NCBI GenBank assembly: GCA_963565915.1
Contig: OY751488.1
Span: 4,650,001-4,714,000 of the forward strand
From: Entoloma clypeatum
Lineage: Eukaryota > Basidiomycota > Agaricomycetes > Agaricales > Entolomataceae
DNA length: 64,000 nt
Reading direction: 5' to 3'
Shown here piece after piece: positions 29,136-61,856 of this stretch; position 1 is the stretch's first letter, and each line of letters starts with the position of its first letter. Both the position numbers and the translations under genes were made by a program. Under the pieces are notes generated by a model. The model searched no databases and had not been told where the DNA came from. It saw only the letters and a list, made by a program, of their open reading frames with translations.

Positions 29136-30061
29136 CTAATCCAAATCAAAGAGCAAGACCTCCGCCCTCTCATCACCCACATTCTCAACTACAAACGTGG
29201 TGTGTCCCCCATTCCCAATAGCGATATACGCCCCATCGCCTTCCTTCAACTCCATCCTCTCCCCATTCGCCTTTGCACCGACACTGACACTCGCCCCCTT
29301 TGCTTTGCCCTCATTATATCCTCCCGTTTGAATGACATGCACATACCCCTTCTTCCCCTTCATCACCTGCTCTACCACCCTCCCCTTCTCCAACAACGTC
29401 GCGTGCATCGTCAGCGCACTCTGCACCGGCGCCGGCCCCTTCCCATCTCTCTCCGCATTTACGCCTTCGCTCCCAGCGGGAGCAACCACGCGCACGAACT
29501 TGTTCAGTTTGTCTTCGTCAGACAAGTGCCGGGTATAGTATTTCGGCTGGAGGCGCCGCGTGTGAGGGACACTCCAGATCTGGATGAAATGCACGGAGGG
29601 CGGGCCGGGTGCTTTCTCTGAGTGAGAGATGCCGGTGCCCGCGGAGGTGAGTTGGAGGGAGCCGCGGGTGAGGAGCTCTGTGTTGCCCATGGAGTCTTTA
29701 CTGAATAGAATATGGTATTTTAGAATGTGAACACATGTGAAAGGCTTGAGCAAGACTTACTGCTCGAGGGTTCCAGAGACGATGTATGAGAAGATCTCGA
29801 ATTCGCTGTGGGAATGTGTGCCGAACCCTGTCTTGGGTGCGACGCGGTCCTCGTTGATGACGCGGAGGGGACCGTATTGTTGATTTTTGTGATCTTGGTA
29901 ACTTGGAAAAGTGCATATAAGACTTGATGATACCGCATGGAAGGGGTTAGAAAAGCAACGTACCCAGCGAACGAAAACGTATGGAAAGTCTTGAGCCAGC
30001 CGTGATCGGCGTTTCCGCGCTCGTCACTAGGGCGCGGAATAATTTTCAATGAGGACGACAT
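29136..30061 (-). CDS. pirin family protein
   Basis: Three exons (30061-29964, 29901-29761, 29700-29136) give 267 aa in phase. Pirin is a bicupin iron protein; members act as transcription cofactors or quercetinase-like dioxygenases. Seen here: WLKTFHTFSFAG, GPLRVINEDRV, the metal-binding GTHSHSEFEIFSYIVSG with two His, LEHKDSMGN, and the second ligand pair in SAGTGISHSEKAPG. The C-terminal cupin ends IGNGGHTTFVVENVGDERAEVLLFDL. The arrangement resembles the YhhW-like branch (short N-terminus, no YDPF). No targeting signal. All four expected ligand residues (three His, one Glu) are present, so it should bind metal. Confidence 0.9.
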
Positions 30062-30670: not shown

Positions 30671-31310
30671 TCAATCAGCCTCACGCCTGGATCTTGTGAA
30701 GGATCGTTTTAGGAAGTGATCGATCGAAACATATTCGACCTCGACCATCGTGTCCTGCACCCTGCTTTTCCAGTGGCACATGCATTTGTGGCTTGAGACT
30801 GCATTTGTGAGAATGAGGACGTACGCAGGGATGAAGACGTCATTCAGATCTCGGCGGGGTGACGGTGGCCCAGGGCATGGGAGGTGTGCGTGGGGCCCCT
30901 TGTTTGGATCATCGAAGAAGAGACCAACCGTGTGGTCTGTTTCGGTGGGGCTGAAGAAGTACTCGTCGCACCTTTTCTTCAACGCAGGGTAGAGCTGAGG
31001 CCCTTGCACAATAACACACGTCGGATGGAAACGCACTGCATTTTCTTCGAACAGATAAGTCGCTGTGAGATTCTCTGAGCACAATCACTGCAGCGACTGC
31101 GCTGTCGTCCCACCAGTGGACACGCAAACACAACCTCATCAATGGTGGTGCTGGACGGTCGAGGGCTCCAAGGGCTTTAATAAATCGTTCAACTGTATCC
31201 TTTGACGCGTCGAAGATCCCCGTGTAGTAAGAACCATCGTTGCAGCGGAGGGTTATAATTGGAATAAACACGTCGGGCGTCCGGTCAAGGAGCCGTTGTC
31301 ACTCACGAAA
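30671..31310 (-). pseudogene. unrecognised gene, probably frameshifted
   Basis: Two coding-looking segments on the minus strand lie in adjacent frames. Roughly 31290-31095 (DVFIPIITLRCNDGSYYTGIF, VERFIKALG, VHWWDDSAVAAVIVL) continues after a one-base shift into about 31075-30671 (ATYLFEENAVRFHPTCVIV, DLNDVFIPAYVLILTN, VEYVSIDHFL). The DVFIP motif occurs in both, hinting at an internal repeat. No intron fits the junction, so either a one-base indel or a sequence error disrupts it. The N-terminal exon was not found. Family unknown. Confidence 0.4.
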
Positions 31311-31418: not shown

Positions 31419-32436
31419 TCAATACTCGTCGTATTCACCGTAGTAACCCCTCGCGATGATGTCCAGGAGTTCCTCGACAACCAAGTCCCTCCTTATCTGT
31501 TGGAGTTGCCCGCTTGACACTGTGCCCTGGGCGTGCTTGCCCGGGGCTGTACCCCCTCTTGTTGATTTGGTGCCGGCATCGGCGGCGCGCTTGACGTGGT
31601 CGTTAGCATGGACGTGGTTCCCTGGGGTTGTACCGCCTCCTGATGTTCTGGTCCCGGCCTCTGCCCCACGCTTGACATGGTCGTTAGCATGGGCGTGGTT
31701 CCCCGGGGTTGTACCGCCTCCTGATGTTCTGGTCCCGGCCTCGGCGCCACGCTTGACATGGTCGTTAGCATGGGCGTGGTTCCCCGGGGTTGTACCGCCT
31801 CCTGATGTTCTGGTCCCGGCCTCTGCCCCACGCTTGACATGGTCGTTAGCATGGGCGTGGTTCCCCGGGGTTGTACCGCCTCCTGATGTTCTGGTCCCGG
31901 CCTCGGCGCCACGCTTGACATGGTCGTTAGCATGGACGTGGTTCCCTGGGGTTGTACCGCCTCCTGATGTTCTGGTCCCGGCCTCTGCTCCACGCTTGAC
32001 GTGGTCGTTAGCATGGGCGTGGTTCCCTGGGGTTGTACCGCCTCCTGATGTTCTGGTCCCGGCCTCTGCTCCACGCTTGACGTGGTCGTTAGCATGGGCG
32101 TGGTTCCCTGGGGTTGTACCGCCTCCTGATGTTCTGGTGCCGGCCTCGGCGCCGCGCTTCACGTTGTCGTTAGCATGGGCTTCATTGTAGGCTGTGTCAT
32201 GGATGTGATTCGCGCGCTCGAAGAGCTCGCTATCATCGTCGTAGAACAGGCCCCTCAAGTACAGCTCCTCATCTCCGCGCGCAACTAGATCGTAGTCAAA
32301 TTTGGGAACGGCAGCGCTGGAACGAGAAGAAGAAGTATCAGTATTTGAACAGAGGACAACAGGCCAAGAATTCGCACGCGGAAACTGAGCTTGCCAAAGC
32401 GGCGGCGGAAAGGGCGGCAAGAGTGGAGAAACGCAT
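31419..32436 (-). CDS. secreted Kex2-processed repeat protein (KEP) candidate
   Basis: Exons 32436-32378 and 32316-31419 (intron GTGCGA...TTCCAG, phase 2) give 318 aa. Residues 1-20 are a strong signal peptide (MRFSTLAALSAAALASSVSA). An acidic pro-region follows (DYDLVARGDEELYLRG, FYDDDSELFER). Then come eight Lys-Arg sites exactly 27 residues apart. Between them are seven almost identical units GAEAGTRTSGGGTTPGNH plus (A/V)HANDHVKR; the last unit is diverged (AADAGTKSTRGG). The tail has an IRR site and ends YYGEYDEY. Kexin cleaves after Lys-Arg in the Golgi, so the precursor should release seven copies of a ~25-residue His/Gly/Thr-rich peptide. No Cys, Tyr or Trp occurs in the unit, so a disulfide peptide or a dikaritin-type cyclic peptide is unlikely. 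Role unknown. Confidence 0.85.
31593..32159 (-). repeat. seven tandem 81-bp coding repeats of the KEP gene
   Basis: From the first Lys-Arg codon pair (32154-32159) to the last (31587-31592) is 567 bases, exactly 7 x 81. Units differ at few bases. Two variants, at the codons before the Lys-Arg motif (CCTCTGCCCC or CCTCGGCGCC) and CCCGGGG or CCTGGGG, partly alternate, suggesting a 162-bp dimer was duplicated. Most changes are silent, apart from an Ala/Val alternation and one Asn/His. Confidence 0.95.
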
Positions 32437-33393: not shown

Positions 33394-35799
33394 TTATGCC
33401 ACAGTCTTCGCCTGCGTCTCCATCACCATTCGCGAGAATTTACTCTTACTCCTGATGGTCGGTCCGTAGAAGAAGAGAGTCTACAGGTCCAAGTCAGTTT
33501 TATGTTTCGCGTCACCGAGGTGTCGAGACGCACGAAAGGAATGGGTATCATGAGAACCGCAAGTAGGCCAAATAACGTATTAGCCCATTTGTATCCGAGG
33601 ACGTTGAACATGTGAGTGGTAAATAGAGGGAAAGCCATGCCGGTTAGGTTTCCTGTCATGGTGCCGTAAGTGAGATAGACCAGGTCTGGAAAAACAAGAC
33701 ATGGAGACAACGCACGAAGAAGACTCTGTCCAGCGAGTGCAGAGGATGCGTAAGGGCCATAACTAGGAAAAATTATCTTCAGCGGATTTGTATAGCTAGA
33801 GAGAAGATCCTTACCAATCCGCCAGATACGAAAAGACGACGAGGTAGATTGCGAATGTTGCCCACGCGTATACCTTCAAGTTCAATATCATCGGTCAGCG
33901 ATTATTATTATTATTATCCTAGATGCTGGATGTACGTACTGTGATGCCAATCATTTGCGCGATCCAAGGGATTCGAGGGAACGAAGTCCAGGCGTAAATG
34001 AGCATGCCGATAGGAAGAGCGACGGCGGCGACGCATCCCAGGTGCAAGCGAGCTTCCGGCCCACGCGTAGGGAAATCTCTCCTGTAATGAGAGCAGGCGG
34101 TCTGTCTCAGGCGCCAGATCTATGAAATTTCACTGACTTATAAAGTTTCTCCTGGTAGAAATTAGTGAAAAATGCGATGAGCGATCCAATCCTGCGGAGT
34201 GCGGTGCCAGATTATAAATCTATCAATGACAAGAAAAGGAGATGGAACGCACGCCATCGTGATGAAAGTTGTTCCAATTTGACCGATGTTGAATCCATGG
34301 ACATTTTTGAACACCAACGAAATCGATCTAGATGGAGACGAGGGGAAATCAAACGAATTCTTTGGCGGGAGGAGGAAAGAAACAGACGAGACCATGCAGT
34401 AATAGACCCCCCATGCTAAACCAACCCATAGCTGCGATGATGTCAGTGCCGTATTCAAACGCCGAAAAACGTTGACTTTACACTGAAACTCAAGACGACT
34501 GGTTCTGTTACCAGCAAAACTAGAGCAGACGGTTGGCAAACTTTTGGAAGGAGAAAGATCTGTGCACTTACGAATGGGACGTGTGCAGGAGATGTAGAGC
34601 AGAGTTCTCATGCTCGGTCGTTCATCCTCGCCCTTGGCTCGATATCTATCGTCTCCCGTTTGCTTTCGTTTCTTTTTTGCTATCTGCATCAGAAGGACGG
34701 CACTCCTAGTTTCCGTCATCACTATGGGGATGAGGATGAGGCAAAGGGAAAAGCAGCTGTCGCAGTCGAGAGTTAGTATTCAGGCGACCTAGGGAGGGTG
34801 TAAACGTTACATCATTTGGATCCACTGGATCCATCGCCATTCCAGACGAGGGTTGTGTTCAATCCATCCCGTTATGGAGGGTCCTATACCTATTCCACCA
34901 AAGACTGCGAGCGTGAACAACGACATCGGCAAGCCTCGTCTGCAATAATAGTCGAGTTGGCCGAGAACATTCTCGGAGACGCATTTAGCACTTACTCGGC
35001 AGAAGACCATATATCGGCAATCGTTCCACCGACCATGGTCGAACCAGTGGATCCGAAAGCACCTTGAAGGAAACGAGCTATGAGTACGGTCTGGATATTC
35101 TGAGCCCTATATTGGACTTGTTTAGTGAGGCGGACCACGAAACCGAACCTTGAATCTTACAGCGCAATCATTAAGAACATGAGATGGAAACCCAGCGCAG
35201 AGACGATATACAAAGGCTGTCGCCCAAGCTCCTCGCTGAAGGACGAGGACACGAGAGGGAGGACTGCGAAACCAAGTGCGAACAGGGCCAGCCCGATATT
35301 GGCCTGATAGCGAGTACAGTTGAGATCTCGTGTCATGGAGTCCAAACCGGTATTATATGTTGATATGGCAATACCTAGTAATCGAATCAGGGACTGTGAA
35401 GGGAAACTTGGGGGAAAAAAATAAGAACAAGAACGAACCTGAAAATAAAGCGAACACACAGGCCATGATCGTGATCCGCCACTTCTTACGACGGGGGAAA
35501 TTCATTGGATTTCGCGTATCGCCTTCAGCGAAATCTATCTGAAATTTGATTCACATCAGAGTTCGCCAGAGGGGAGAGGCCCTGTTCATTGGGCGTACAA
35601 TCATTGATGCTTCAGAATCCAATTTCTTTTCACTAAGCACGCGAGCGTATATGCCCATCGATTGACGAAAGGTCTCCTTCGTGACATGGATCGGCGGTGC
35701 CCGTGAGGACAGAGGGTCATCGAAGTCGGACCCTCGGACCTTCTCACAATCTATCGTATCGCATGGGTAAGACGGGAATCCCCCAATGGGCGCCGACAT
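33394..35799 (-). CDS. MFS transporter, DHA1 (polyamine/drug) type
   Basis: About twelve exons. The start is ATG at 35799; exon 1 (35799-35599), exon 2 (35538-35439), exon 3 (35374-35161), exon 4 (35106-34996), exon 5 (34939-34811) and exon 6 (from 34756) were checked in phase. The stop is TAA at 33396-33394. The core reads GDTRNPMNFPRRKKW, SMTRDLNCTRYQANIGLALFA, EELGRQPLYIVSALGF, IARFLQGAFGSTGSTMVGG, RGLPMSLFTLAVFGGIGIGP, WRWIQWIQMI, HGFNIGQIGT, RGPEARLHLGCVAA, SSALAGQSLLR, YKWANTLFGLLAVLMIPIPF and FFYGPTIRSKSKFSRMV, which are TPO/FLU1-like signatures. It should be a twelve-span plasma membrane proton antiporter; substrate unknown. No stop or frameshift seen in the spliced reading. Confidence 0.85.
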
Positions 35800-55333: not shown

Positions 55334-55681
55334 TGTTACGGACTAACGACTACGGACGTATACGCTTACTTTTTCATTCTTACTCATCGGGCCCCGCTTA
55401 CCTATATTCTATGACACTCTACTTCCATTAGTATACTTCGCTCCCGCGCTGACTCGCTTTCCGCAGTCGTCTTACTCAGACGCACTGCCTTCCGCAGTTA
55501 TCTTACTCAGATACACTGCCTTGCGCAGCACTGACTCATATGCTATCGCCTATAGTCAGTACCTATATAAACCCTTTGTACTATAGCTAGGTTCCTTAGA
55601 TTTAGCAATCACATTGCTCTTCGCCTTTCCATCTTCCTGCATACTCTGCCCGAACCTTGGAACGGTTTGTTACGCATAACA
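55334..55681 (+). repeat. gypsy 5' LTR
   Basis: 348 bp, TGTTACGGAC...GCATAACA. Contains several copies of a CGCACTGCCTTCCGCAGT/TCTTACTCAGA motif upstream of the TATA box, a possible enhancer-like array. Confidence 0.96.
55564..55608 (+). promoter_or_regulatory. gypsy core promoter and predicted start of R
   Basis: TATATAAA at 55564-55571. AGATTTAGCAA begins 34 bases from the TATA start (55598-55608), the distance expected for the transcription start. This 11-mer is exactly complementary to the sequence just after the LTR (55684-55694). Confidence 0.65.
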
Positions 55682-56472: not shown

Positions 56473-57339
56473 ATGGCAGAAGCACTGACAGTGCAAACGA
56501 TGGATACATCCAAGATCATCAAAGATCCTGGGATGTTCAAAGACAGACACACCTTTGACGAGTGGTGGAAAGCCACCAAACTATACATCAGGTTCCAGAA
56601 GGGCCTGTCCGACGATCAGAAGATCCTGGCGGTGTTATCCCGCATGATGGAAGGGTCCGGTAAACACTGGGCCAGCAACAAGTTAGACGATCTTGCTACC
56701 GATGGCGAGAACATCACCTGGTTAGGGTTCTCAGACGACATCGCTACGCGATTCTCTATTGCCAACAAGTCAGCAGCGGCCAAGGCGAGACTCGAAGTCC
56801 TGAAACAGGAGAAACGCACCATTGACGAATTCTTGGACGAATTCGAAGAGCTCTTGAAGCTGTCAAACCTTGGCGAAGAAACTGGGAAATACATCCTGGA
56901 AAAGAACGTCAACCGCAGAATTTCTGAACAAGTGGCTAGCGATGGCAAGACGTACACCGATTACGCAAAGGAGATCCGAAACAAGGGACGACAGATGGAG
57001 GGACATGCATTAGTCATCCGAGGGGGTGGCGACACACGCACCGGATCGGGCACCACTTATGGTGGTCAAGGCAAAGCCATGGAGATCGACAAAGCAGGAG
57101 TAGCCCGTTGCTACAACTGTCAACGTTTCGGTCACCTCGCTAAAGACTGCAGCGCTCCAAAGAAGAAAGATGGTCGCAAGTGTTTCAACTGCGACCAAGA
57201 AGGCCATATTGCGCGCAACTGCCGCAAGCCGAAGAAGAACTCCGGAAGGGTTAGGAAGGTGTCTGAGGAAGATGCCGAGAAGGATGAAACCACAATCTTA
57301 GAAGCCGACGAGAAGGATTTTCCCGAAGGGTCCGATTAA
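56473..57339 (+). CDS. gypsy gag (capsid and nucleocapsid)
   Basis: 288 aa from ATG 56473. The retrotransposon gag domain shows as [56 protein letters not shown]. Two zinc knuckles follow: [14 protein letters not shown] and [14 protein letters not shown]. The acidic tail ends FPEGSD then TAA at 57337. It packages the RNA into virus-like particles. The frame is open upstream to 56101, so the true N-terminus may be longer. Pol is in the -1 frame and overlaps the last 52 bases. Confidence 0.93.
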
Positions 57340-57380
57340 ACGACGCTAAGTCGCGACCCTTATCTATTAAACGGACTTGC

Positions 57381-60300
57381 TTGCCTTGTATGACTGCAGA
57401 CAATAGAACCTATGTCATCCCTGCCAAGCGAGCCGCTGCGTCGACTAAGATTGTGAAGGGAGACAAACCTCCGAAACGACGAGAGATCAGGCTGTTAGCT
57501 CAGCTCAAAACACGACGAGGACCAAAGGTCATTCGACCTGAGGTTGATAGTGGATGTGAACGCACATGCATCCATCCCAGAATAGTACGCGAACAGAACC
57601 TCCCTACGCGAGGAATACCGCCCATAGCAATTCTAAATGCGGATGGATCACCAAATCGACAACAGAGAGCGAACCAACTTGCCGAAGTCAAGCTGGATTT
57701 GGGAACACATCAGGAAACCATGGAAGCGATGGTACTGGACATCGGGAGAACTGACATGCTCTTGGGACATGACTGGTTGGTACACCACAATCCTACGATC
57801 AATTGGACAACCGGCGCTGTAACGTTCAACCGGTGCCCAGCAACATGCCGAACCAAACATTCGGAATTCAGGGTTAACCTTGATGGTCGCAAACACCGGG
57901 TTCGCATGGTTGAAGTGCGCGACAAAGATGCACCCAAGAAGTCGGATCAGAAATGGAAGCCTGGAGACCCTATATTGGAAGCTGTCACTCCCACACCACC
58001 TCCCACAACCAAACGACCCTCATATGTTGATCGATTTACTCACCTCTTCGAGAAGGAGAACTTTGATAAGATCCCGAAGGAAAGGGAATGGGACCATGGT
58101 ATTGAACTTACACCGGACGCACCAAAGGAACTAGGGGGAAACACATATCCCATGACACAAAAGGAACAAGAGGAATTGGACGCATTCATTGACGAGGGTC
58201 TAGCAACTGGAAAGATCCGCCCGTCCAAATCCCCTTATGCCTCCCCTTGCTTCTTCATCAACAAGAAGGATGGTTCCAAACGATTGGTACAAGACTACCG
58301 CATGGTCAACAAATTCACGGTCAAAGACAAATTCCCACTCCCTCGCATCTCCGATCTCTTGGACGTGCTGAAAGATGCAGTCTACTTCAATAAGATGGAC
58401 ATCATGTGGGGTTACAACAATGTCCGGATTAAAAAAGGCGATGAATGGAAGGCTGCCTTCCTTACCAGTCGAGGATTGTTTGAACCATTGGTCATGTTTT
58501 TCGGCCTTTGCAACTCCCCGGGAACATTCTCTCGGATGATGGCTAGTCTATTCCGGGACCAGATCCGCCGACGCATCTGCGTGATCTACATGGATGACAT
58601 CGTGGTTATTGGTAAAACCAAGGAAGAACTCGCGCGAAACACCGAAGAAATTCTGCAGATCCTATCGGACAATGACTTGTTCCTGAAGGAGAAGAAGTGT
58701 TTCTGGGAAGTAACAAAATGCCCCATATTGGGATATGTCGTTGGTGAAGGACGTGTCGAGATGGAAACCGAGAAGGTGGACACGATCCAGAACTGGCGAA
58801 CACCCACATCAAAAAAGGAAGTCCAGAAGTTCCTTGGGTTTGCTAACTTCTATCGGCGCTTCATTGAAGGATACTCAAACATCGCGAAACCACTTACCGC
58901 GCTCACAGGCGGCACTGCGTTTACTTGGGGACCAACGGAACAAAAGGCATTTGAAGGTCTCATACAGGCGATCACATCGGCACCAGTCTTGGCATTACCA
59001 AAACCAGATGGACAGTTCAGGGTCGAAACCGATGCATCGGGCTATGCAATTGGGGCTGTACTCTCTCAAAAACAGGACGACAAATGGCATCCTATCGCGT
59101 TCTTGTCGCGGACCATGTCCGCGGCCGAACAAAATTACGAGATATACGACAAAGAGCTCTTGGCAGTCATGGAAGCACTGAAAGATTGGAGACACTATCT
59201 GCTCGAAGCCAGGGAACGCTTCGAGATCTTAACTGATCACAAGAACCTGGAGTATTTCCGCCGTCCTCAGGACCTAAATCAACGGCAAAGGCGCTGGAAG
59301 ATGAAGTTACAAGATTATGACTTCGAACTACGGCATGTGCCTGGCAAGACAAATGCAAAAGCGGACATCCTGTTGCGCTTACCCTGGTATGAAACGGAAC
59401 TCGAACCGCAAGACAGTGACCAAATGCTCAAGGAGGGACTATTCTTGAAACGATTGGAATCAGAAGATGTGGTACAAATGGAGATGTTCACGGAGGAACA
59501 ATTCTTTGAAGGGGGTGAAACATCTGAGTCCATCAAGATTGGAAACGTCACAACCATCGAAAATCCGTGGATCGCACGCATCAAGGGTTCAAACCGCATG
59601 GAGACAGAAGTAGCCCAGGGTCTAAAAAAGAACCCTCATTGGTATCAACAGGAAAACGGCATCACATATGCAGGCGAACGAGTCTATGTTCCACCGGACC
59701 CACAACTGCGTCAAGAACTAATGTTTGAATCACACGATGCACCAGTGGCTGGACATCCAGGACAGTATCGAACACATGAACTCCTCACTCGCACCTACTG
59801 GTGGCCTACCATCCTGCATGATGTAAAGAAGTACGTAAAGGGTTGCAACACCTGTCAGCGCAACAAGATCAACAGACAGAAACGACATGCTCCGCTACAC
59901 CCCCATGCAGCACCAAGTCATCCATGGGAAGACATAGGGATTGACGTCGTGGGACCAATACCAGAGTCTGATGGAAAGAATGCGATCCTGGTCATCACGG
60001 ATAGACATTCGAAGATGCTTCATCTCATTCCGACAACCGTGGAATTATCGGCTGAAGGATTAGCCAAGATCTATCGGGATCAGATATGGAAGCTCCACGG
60101 AATCCCCAAGAAAATCATCAGCGACAGGGGACCACAGTTCGCCGCGAAGTTCATGGAGATACTTTGCCGCATGTTAGGGATCAAAAGGAACCTGTCCACC
60201 GCATACCACCCACAGACGGATGGACAAGCCGAACGATCGCATCAGGAAACAGAAGCGTTCTTACGAAACTTTGTCAACCATCTGCAAGATGATTGGGCTG

Positions 60301-60989
60301 AATGGATCGCGATCGCCGAATTCCAGTACAATGACAAAGAACATCAGGCGACGAAGCATACACCATTCTACCTCAACTATGGCTTACATCCTTGGAAGGG
60401 AGAACTTGTGTTGGAAGACACCAACCCGGCTGCCAACAGCTTCTTGGAAAAACTCAAACAAGCACGAGAAGAAGCCAATGCAGCGCTGAAACAGGCACAG
60501 GATCAGATGAAGAAGACAGTTGATACACGACGGAGTCCATCTCGAAACTACCGCATCGGAGACAAGGTGTGGCTGGAAGGGACTAACATCAGAACTAACC
60601 GCCCCTCGAAGAAACTTGACGCACTCCGACACGGACCATTCAAGGTCCTAGAGAAGAAAGGGGCTAGCGCATATGTTCTTGATCTTCCAAAGACTTGGAA
60701 AATGATCCACCCTGTGTTCAACGAGACCCTGTTGTCGCCATACGAAACCCCGAAGTATGCCATTCAGAAAAAGAAGCCAGCCCCTGATCCGATCATCGTC
60801 GAAGGACGAGAAGAATACCATGTCTCCACGATCCTGGACTCTCGGAAATTCCGCGGAAAGATCCAGTACCTTGTCCAATGGGAAGGGTATGGCCCAGAAG
60901 AGAACACGTGGGAACCTCGGGATAATGTTCAGAATGCTCAAGACTTGATCCGAGATTTTCATCGGCAAAATCCATCGCGTCCACGATAA
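57381..60989 (+). CDS. gypsy pol: protease, RT, RNase H, integrase, chromodomain
   Basis: The frame is open from 57288; first ATG at 57390. Protease [11 protein letters not shown] with downstream LLGHDWL; reverse transcriptase with [24 protein letters not shown] and the catalytic YMDDIVV; RNase H with [15 protein letters not shown] and [11 protein letters not shown]; integrase zinc region HPGQYRTHE...CNTCQRNK and catalytic Asp/Asp/Glu in [17 protein letters not shown] and [14 protein letters not shown] context; a GPY/F-like module ([22 protein letters not shown]). The C-terminal chromodomain [29 protein letters not shown] keeps the aromatic cage residues and should bind methylated histone. 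No stop or frameshift. Translation must follow gag by -1 shift or reinitiation 50 nt after the gag stop. Confidence 0.95.
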
Positions 60990-61508: not shown

Positions 61509-61856
61509 TGTTACGGACTAACGACTACGGACGTATACGCTTACTTTTTCATTCTTACTCATCGGGCCCCGCTTACCTATATTCTATGACACTCTACTTC
61601 CATTAGTATACTTCGCTCCCGCGCTGACTCGCTTTCCGCAGTCGTCTTACTCAGACGCACTGCCTTCCGCAGTTATCTTACTCAGATACACTGCCTTGCG
61701 CAGCACTGACTCATATGCTATCGCCTATAGTCAGTACCTATATAAACCCTTTGTACTATAGCTAGGTTCCTTAGATTTAGCAATCACATTGCTCTTCGCC
61801 TTTCCATCTTCCTGCATACTCTGCCCGAACCTTGGAACGGTTTGTTACGCATAACA
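61509..61856 (+). repeat. gypsy 3' LTR
   Basis: 348 bp, identical by eye to the 5' LTR; followed by the target duplication TCCTG. Confidence 0.96.

Follow-up and report, generated by a model that had tools for sequence, protein, structure and literature searches.

A predicted secreted repeat precursor with an alpha-factor-like layout, and its paralog family, in the basidiomycete Entoloma clypeatum

Introduction

A 64,000-nucleotide stretch of the Entoloma clypeatum genome (contig OY751488.1 of assembly GCA_963565915.1, positions 4,650,001 to 4,714,000; hereafter the window) carries a tandem array with an open reading frame running through it. Does this frame encode a secreted precursor from which short peptides are cut, or is it a repeat that happens to be open? 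A first-pass annotation had proposed a secreted repeat precursor at 31419..32436. The coordinates are borne out, and the gene is now assigned to the minus strand, with its ATG at 32436 and its stop codon at 31419-31421. That annotation had overlooked two features, namely the family of paralogs to which the gene belongs and the X-Ala-X-Ala signal that follows its Lys-Arg sites.

Architecture of the precursor gene

The gene (minus strand, 32436-31419) comprises two predicted exons and encodes a protein of 318 residues, with an estimated mass of ~30 kDa. Its features are as follows.

32378..32436, minus strand: exon 1 with signal peptide MRFSTLAALSAAALASSVSA; 59 nt, last codon split by the intron; a like exon in 14 intact paralogs
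32317..32377, minus strand: predicted intron; 61 nt, GTGCGA...TTCCAG, with CTGAT inside; place common to all 15 models of the family
31419..32316, minus strand: exon 2 with the stop codon; completes the 318-residue protein
32160..32315, minus strand: acidic pro-region, residues 21-72; family leader (here FDYDLVARGDEELYLRGLFYDDDSELFER) and half-unit
31593..32159, minus strand: seven 27-residue units, each KR-GAEA-GTRTSGGGTTPGNH(A/V)HANDHV
31494..31592, minus strand: degenerate last unit KR-AADA-GTKSTRGGTAPGKHAQGTVSSGQLQQI; KR and X-Ala-X-Ala kept, much else changed
31422..31493, minus strand: RR site and family tail RRDLVVEELLDIIARGYYGEYDEY; tail motif in 13 of the 15 intact members

Exon 1 translates to MRFSTLAALSAAALASSVS(A). 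The signal peptide that had been claimed for it was recognised by eye, and the conservation of the exon in the 14 paralogs agrees with this assignment. Read on without splicing, exon 1 runs into a stop codon, and the 61-nt intron is predicted from the sequence to be removed. Its donor GTGCGA is atypical: 13 paralogs use GTAAGT, GTGAGT, GTATGT or GTAAGC, and one uses GTGCGT. The pro-region deserves the name acidic that it had been given (13 Asp/Glu versus 4 Lys/Arg in residues 21-72), and ends with the half-unit YNEAHANDNV just before the first Lys-Arg. Comparison of the 318-residue precursor with Pfam-A profiles reports no family at E values up to 10, and a search of a phage collection returned no match.

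Repeat units, Lys-Arg sites and apparent constraint

Lys-Arg pairs occupy residues 73, 100, 127, 154, 181, 208, 235 and 262, that is, eight sites spaced by exactly 27 residues, as first annotated, and a single Arg-Arg at residue 295 is followed by DL. The seven near-identical units announced between these sites all read KRGAEAGTRTSGGGTTPGNH(A/V)HANDHV and differ at one residue, Val being restricted to units 3 and 7. At the DNA level, TRF describes the array as 8.1 copies of 81 bp (93% matches, score 1068), the top of 20 rows for the 64-kb window. Directly after each of the eight Lys-Arg sites stands X-Ala-X-Ala, as GAEA seven times and AADA once; in the eighth unit, 8 of the first 20 residues are changed relative to the regular unit, and both Ala positions are retained.

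Seven codons vary across the seven units, six of them only silently and one through the Ala/Val exchange (pS 0.143, pN 0.008). At least eight changes separate the units, of which one changes the amino acid and at least seven are silent; the binomial P is ~5e-4, or 0.002 when each of the seven variable codons counts once, both values being rough, as the units copy each other and are not independent, mutation bias is ignored and the changes total only eight. With so few amino-acid changes for so many silent ones, the peptide appears constrained, and neutral drift of the units is unlikely. A search of the whole genome with the unit returned at least four matches, and all among the matches listed lie within the precursor gene. 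Units 4-5 and 6-7 (31593-31916, minus strand) display the same order of silent variants (GGC GCC, then GGG GCA), pointing to duplication two units at a time.

KEX2-processed repeat proteins (KEPs) are defined, in the sections of Le Marquer et al. 2019 (PMC6339444) used here, by a predicted signal peptide without a later transmembrane segment, by at least four KR/RR fragments of which at least three are alike, and by a repeat covering at least 15% of the protein. Cut at KR/RR, the precursor yields 10 fragments, seven of them alike and amounting to 59% of its length, and so qualifies on both repeat criteria, re-implemented here with our own likeness threshold and not run with the authors' script.

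A paralog family alike at the ends and mostly different in the middle

Searches of the 60.08-Mb assembly (20 contigs) with the precursor protein and with a leader-tail consensus, followed by gene modelling, identified at least 15 intact genes including the precursor gene, all having the signal peptide and the intron in common; these counts are lower bounds. The intact members are distributed as follows.

Contig C6: one, the precursor gene
Contig C14: 770, 3170 and 3181 kb
Contig C11: 769 kb
Contig C1: 4984 kb
Contig C15: 2338, 2557, 2648, 2906, 2938 and 3090 kb
Contig C2: 1564, 4785 and 4791 kb

At least five broken or partial loci were found among those read (C2 4794, C5 1052, C15 2426, C15 2651 and C1 4986 kb), together with one weak match at C15 2315 kb (E 0.014 and 0.03). 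A pattern search with exon 1 hit 13 places, all already known: a broken copy and 12 of the 15 intact members. The reversed pattern, used as a control, hit none. The intron lies at nt 59 in all 15 models, or at nt 56 where one of them lacks 3 nt, and measures 49-69 nt, its shared place being partly a matter of construction, as the models were built looking for an intron there. Twelve members have the full leader. Those at C2 4785 and 4791 kb carry a shorter version, and little of it is left at C15 2906 kb, a member that retains the tail motif.

Two pairs of members are identical, leaving 13 distinct proteins among the 15; setting aside two near-identical members gives the 11 lineages compared below. 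The identical proteins belong to recent duplicates, 5.9 kb apart on C2 (L030/L031) and 11.4 kb apart on C14 (L018/L019), and the near-identical copies on C15 and C1 (L022/L023) are each accompanied by a like decayed neighbour. The smallest intact member (L080, C15:2905786-2906181) comprises 109 residues with KR/RR sites and a single core, KGRAGGGGTTPTQQTTEGQPATPGSKGKR; its donor GTGCGT resembles the GTGCGA of the precursor gene, and L080 perhaps shows what the latter looked like before amplification. In L016, L018, L021 and L033, an acidic spacer of the type SLFYDDDDELFAR separates the middle parts, which suggests that these members may be cut after single Arg (LxAR), beyond the dibasic sites.

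When the 11 lineages are compared in all 55 pairings, the signal peptide is the most alike (mean identity 0.79), followed by the leader (0.58), the tail (0.55, a value pulled down by C15 2938 and 3090 kb, whose ends differ) and the middle (0.29). Middles are alike above shuffles (z over 4) in 8 of the 55 pairs, with a median z of 1.0, and all eight pairs fall among five members (C14 3170, C15 2338, 2557, 2938 and 3090 kb), perhaps partly via the repeated acidic spacer. The middle of the precursor reaches a z of at most 2.8 against those of the 10 other lineages (20 shuffles each). Kinship of the unit itself with paralog middles was considered and set aside as not convincing after 14 comparisons (500 shuffles each), three of which gave P below 0.05: C15_2906 (P 0.008, over nine residues, RTSGGGTTP with RAGGGGTTP) and the near-identical C15_2648/C1_4983 (0.036 and 0.028, a 19-residue match), with C15_2557 at 0.056.

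In exon 1, compared with 12 paralogs after leaving out two identical copies, identity at codon positions 1+2 amounts to 76-89% for 11 of them (C15_3090, at 55%, being an ungapped count that crosses a 3-nt deletion), versus 33-53% at third positions in all 12. Positions 1+2 being far more alike than third positions, the signal-peptide exon is held by selection. The corresponding tail values are 0.92 versus 0.68 (C15 2648 and C1 4984 kb) and 0.82 versus 0.52 (C2 4785 kb), a contrast weaker than that of exon 1 and drawn from four usable members with three full-length matches; for the leader, the comparison was made at the protein level. Of the nine inner branches in a tree built from the leader and tail of 13 members, one is well supported, and the tree gives the precursor gene no supported position.

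The KR-X-Ala-X-Ala arrangement occurs in one of the 11 lineages and is absent after every KR or RR site of the other 14 members. Three members, representing two lineages, qualify on the KEP repeat criteria, namely the precursor and the identical C14 pair (5 fragments alike, 75%). Since the 12 others do not qualify and four members have no KR or RR at all, the shared ends by themselves do not imply Kex2 processing. It is conceivable, if on balance doubtful, that this family invents peptides: the signal peptide, acidic leader and tail would be kept while the middle is replaced or made anew and sometimes amplified into a Kex2-cut repeat, the alpha-factor-like layout having arisen afresh in the present gene. 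Its occurrence in a single lineage of the 11 is what would make the layout new here and not kept from an ancestral pheromone precursor.

Predicted processing and alternative readings

The reading that we consider probable is that the precursor is cut at Lys-Arg and releases its units. It would work like the yeast alpha-factor precursor: after removal of the signal peptide, a kexin of the Golgi would cleave behind each of the eight Lys-Arg pairs, the Lys-Arg left on the fragments would be stripped by a Kex1-type carboxypeptidase, and a Ste13-type dipeptidyl peptidase would take off Gly-Ala and Glu-Ala, leaving about seven copies of the 21-mer GTRTSGGGTTPGNH(A/V)HANDHV. The computed monoisotopic masses of this 21-mer are 2042.93 Da (Ala form) and 2070.96 Da (Val form). 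The first-pass annotation had predicted about seven copies of a ~25-residue peptide; the copy number stands, while the length is more likely 21, given that the GA-EA or AA-DA found after each Lys-Arg is a spacer of the alpha-factor Ste13 type.

The processing machinery is plausibly encoded in the genome. Fungi usually have one kexin gene; here, two kexin P-domain genes stand in tandem, ~3 kb apart (L084, C5:4032602-4035653). Both contain HGTRCAG, the motif of the catalytic His, and GTSAAAPNA, that of the catalytic Ser, is seen in the part of one that was read. For Ste13, the candidate is a DPPIV-N gene in which a hydrophobic stretch precedes the matched domain. Together with the repeat structure, the kexin-type genes and the Ste13-like candidate uphold the original designation of a Kex2-type repeat precursor, which is presumed to be spliced, processed and secreted.

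The probability given to cutting at Lys-Arg includes a minor share for a variant in which Ste13 trimming does not take place and the product is the 25-mer GAEAGTRTSGGGTTPGNH(A/V)HANDHV, with computed monoisotopic masses of 2371.06 Da (Ala form) and 2399.10 Da (Val form). The anatomy would be the same, and the product of a DPPIV-type gene need not be a Golgi enzyme, but X-Ala-X-Ala at all eight sites, kept even in the diverged last unit, argues against it. It is rather improbable that the protein stays whole, as a secreted Gly/Thr/His-rich surface or wall protein with its 27-residue repeats stacked into a beta-solenoid and the Lys-Arg pairs in loops. In the best of five AlphaFold models built without an alignment (mean pLDDT 67.1, pTM 0.59), regular strands run along the repeats, and the solenoid is our own reading of this strand pattern. 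However, a control made from a wrong frame of the same DNA and strand, likewise a near-perfect 27-residue repeat, equals it (mean pLDDT 69.0, pTM 0.67), and the five models spread from pLDDT 67.1 to 40.3, those of the control from 69.0 to 32.8. As this single control is of like quality, the model carries no weight in favour of a folded protein, and the solenoid-like fold was dropped as evidence. In the PDB, Foldseek finds no structure that reaches E 0.001, the best E being 0.15, and a whole protein would give no reason for X-Ala-X-Ala after every KR. By sequence, a shortened 183-residue version of the precursor reaches a best E of 0.58 in the PDB.

That the gene is decayed or silent, a minisatellite open by chance in an old family member, is very unlikely. 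The family does contain its five or more broken or partial copies, and two other frames are also open over most of the array. An open frame means little by itself here, since the 81-bp period is a multiple of three and keeps open every frame whose unit lacks a stop. What goes beyond chance is the silent bias among the units, the occurrence of this signal-peptide exon and intron position in 14 further intact genes, and the codon pattern of exon 1; moreover, exon 1, leader and tail of the present gene are intact, and it is in this frame that the unit differences are nearly all silent. Least credible of all is a ribosomal peptide cross-linked or cyclised after cutting, in the manner of the dikaritins. 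Dikaritin cores bear Tyr, while the unit contains no Tyr, Phe, Trp or Cys, in keeping with the first-pass view that it is unlike these peptides. A UstYa profile matched nothing in the genome, a result that proves little as the control was silent too, and none was found among the 20 of 134 window frames scanned. The precursors of ustiloxin and phomopsin do share the Kex2-cut repeat layout, and the EDYXI core fits a Tyr-bearing type, in the sections of PMC6339444 used here.

Comparison with known systems

Cutting at Lys-Arg with release of the units, the preferred reading, places the precursor among systems of a known kind. It resembles the KEPs of PMC6339444 in its by-eye signal peptide, its Lys-Arg sites and its seven like fragments making up 59% of the protein. 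It differs from them by its 15-member family with three qualifying members; the sections used describe no such family, and the words 'paralog' and 'gene family' do not occur in the main text. In the same sections, the STE13 signature is an X-Ala or X-Pro dipeptide following the Kex2 site; it is described as typical of alpha pheromones in ascomycetes and as occurring, to the surprise of the authors, in some Basidiomycota KEPs as well. The authors read the alpha-factor-like layout as maintained in Basidiomycota. In our precursor, XA stands directly after the Kex2 site at all eight Lys-Arg sites, and the succession of a Kex2 site and repeated X-Ala dipeptides is common to it and to the Basidiomycota STE13 KEPs of the portions consulted. 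The Trichosporon oleaginosus KEP peptide QSWGGCGGRGTPCW, the sole Basidiomycota STE13 peptide from those portions to be compared, is unlike the unit. Thus, the layout is of a known kind, STE13-bearing KEPs having already been reported from Basidiomycota in PMC6339444, within the sections considered.

The ascomycete alpha-factor precursors described in the same part of PMC6339444 likewise have a signal peptide and KR-(XA)n-peptide repeats. The peptide of our precursor, however, is unrelated to alpha-factor and contains no Trp or Cys. An acidic pro-region is present in ascomycete alpha-factor precursors and in this one. A search of the genome with the STE2 receptor profile gave no match, the control being silent as well; STE3 gave 11 matches, all on one contig. 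Together with 26 matches to DUF6533, a family that marks mushroom-type basidiomycetes, the STE3 matches agree with the basidiomycete origin of the DNA. Rep1 of Ustilago maydis offers a basidiomycete parallel, in which Kex2 cuts several peptides from one precursor, as is predicted here. Unlike our precursor, Rep1, as named in the consulted sections of PMC6339444, is devoid of the STE13 signature. The less ordinary part is the family, whose members resemble one another at the ends and vary in the middle, and of whose eleven lineages one has the alpha-factor layout.

Genomic neighbourhood

The window contains 134 frames of at least 110 residues, of which 20 were scanned against Pfam and eight matched. 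Closest to the precursor gene are the following.

29139-29756: pirin, beside the precursor gene; Pfam match
30674-31084, minus strand: coproporphyrinogen III oxidase-like fragment, just downstream of the precursor gene; PF01218, E 2.4e-10, profile positions 126-216 of 295
35160-35501: MFS transporter-like frame, below the Pfam cut-off

The oxidase-like fragment beside the pirin may be a decayed extra copy. Farther off are a flavin monooxygenase, 16 kb from the precursor gene, a kinase-like frame below the cut-off, and others. Nothing in the 20 scanned frames of the 134 suggests a peptide-modifying cluster. Two tandem arrays with the same 31-bp consensus (55459-55528 and 61634-61703) flank a frame of 1233 residues (57288-60986, plus strand); they may mark the ends of a retroelement, as its terminal repeats.

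Possible role and significance

As to the role of the peptide, our guess, a tentative one, is a self-signalling, hormone-like function outside mating; an outward-acting peptide, effector or antimicrobial, is about as likely. Metal binding by the HAHANDH cluster is an idea that its composition may prompt.

As fungal signals and effectors, peptides from repeat precursors have been little explored, and the present analysis supplies exact peptide masses as targets. A fresh origin of the alpha-factor layout, if true, would contradict its reading as maintained in Basidiomycota in the sections of PMC6339444 used here. Because the precursor can be placed in a family whose ends are alike and whose middles vary, comparing close relatives makes it possible to test how new secreted peptides originate, and also how an alpha-factor layout arises outside ascomycetes.
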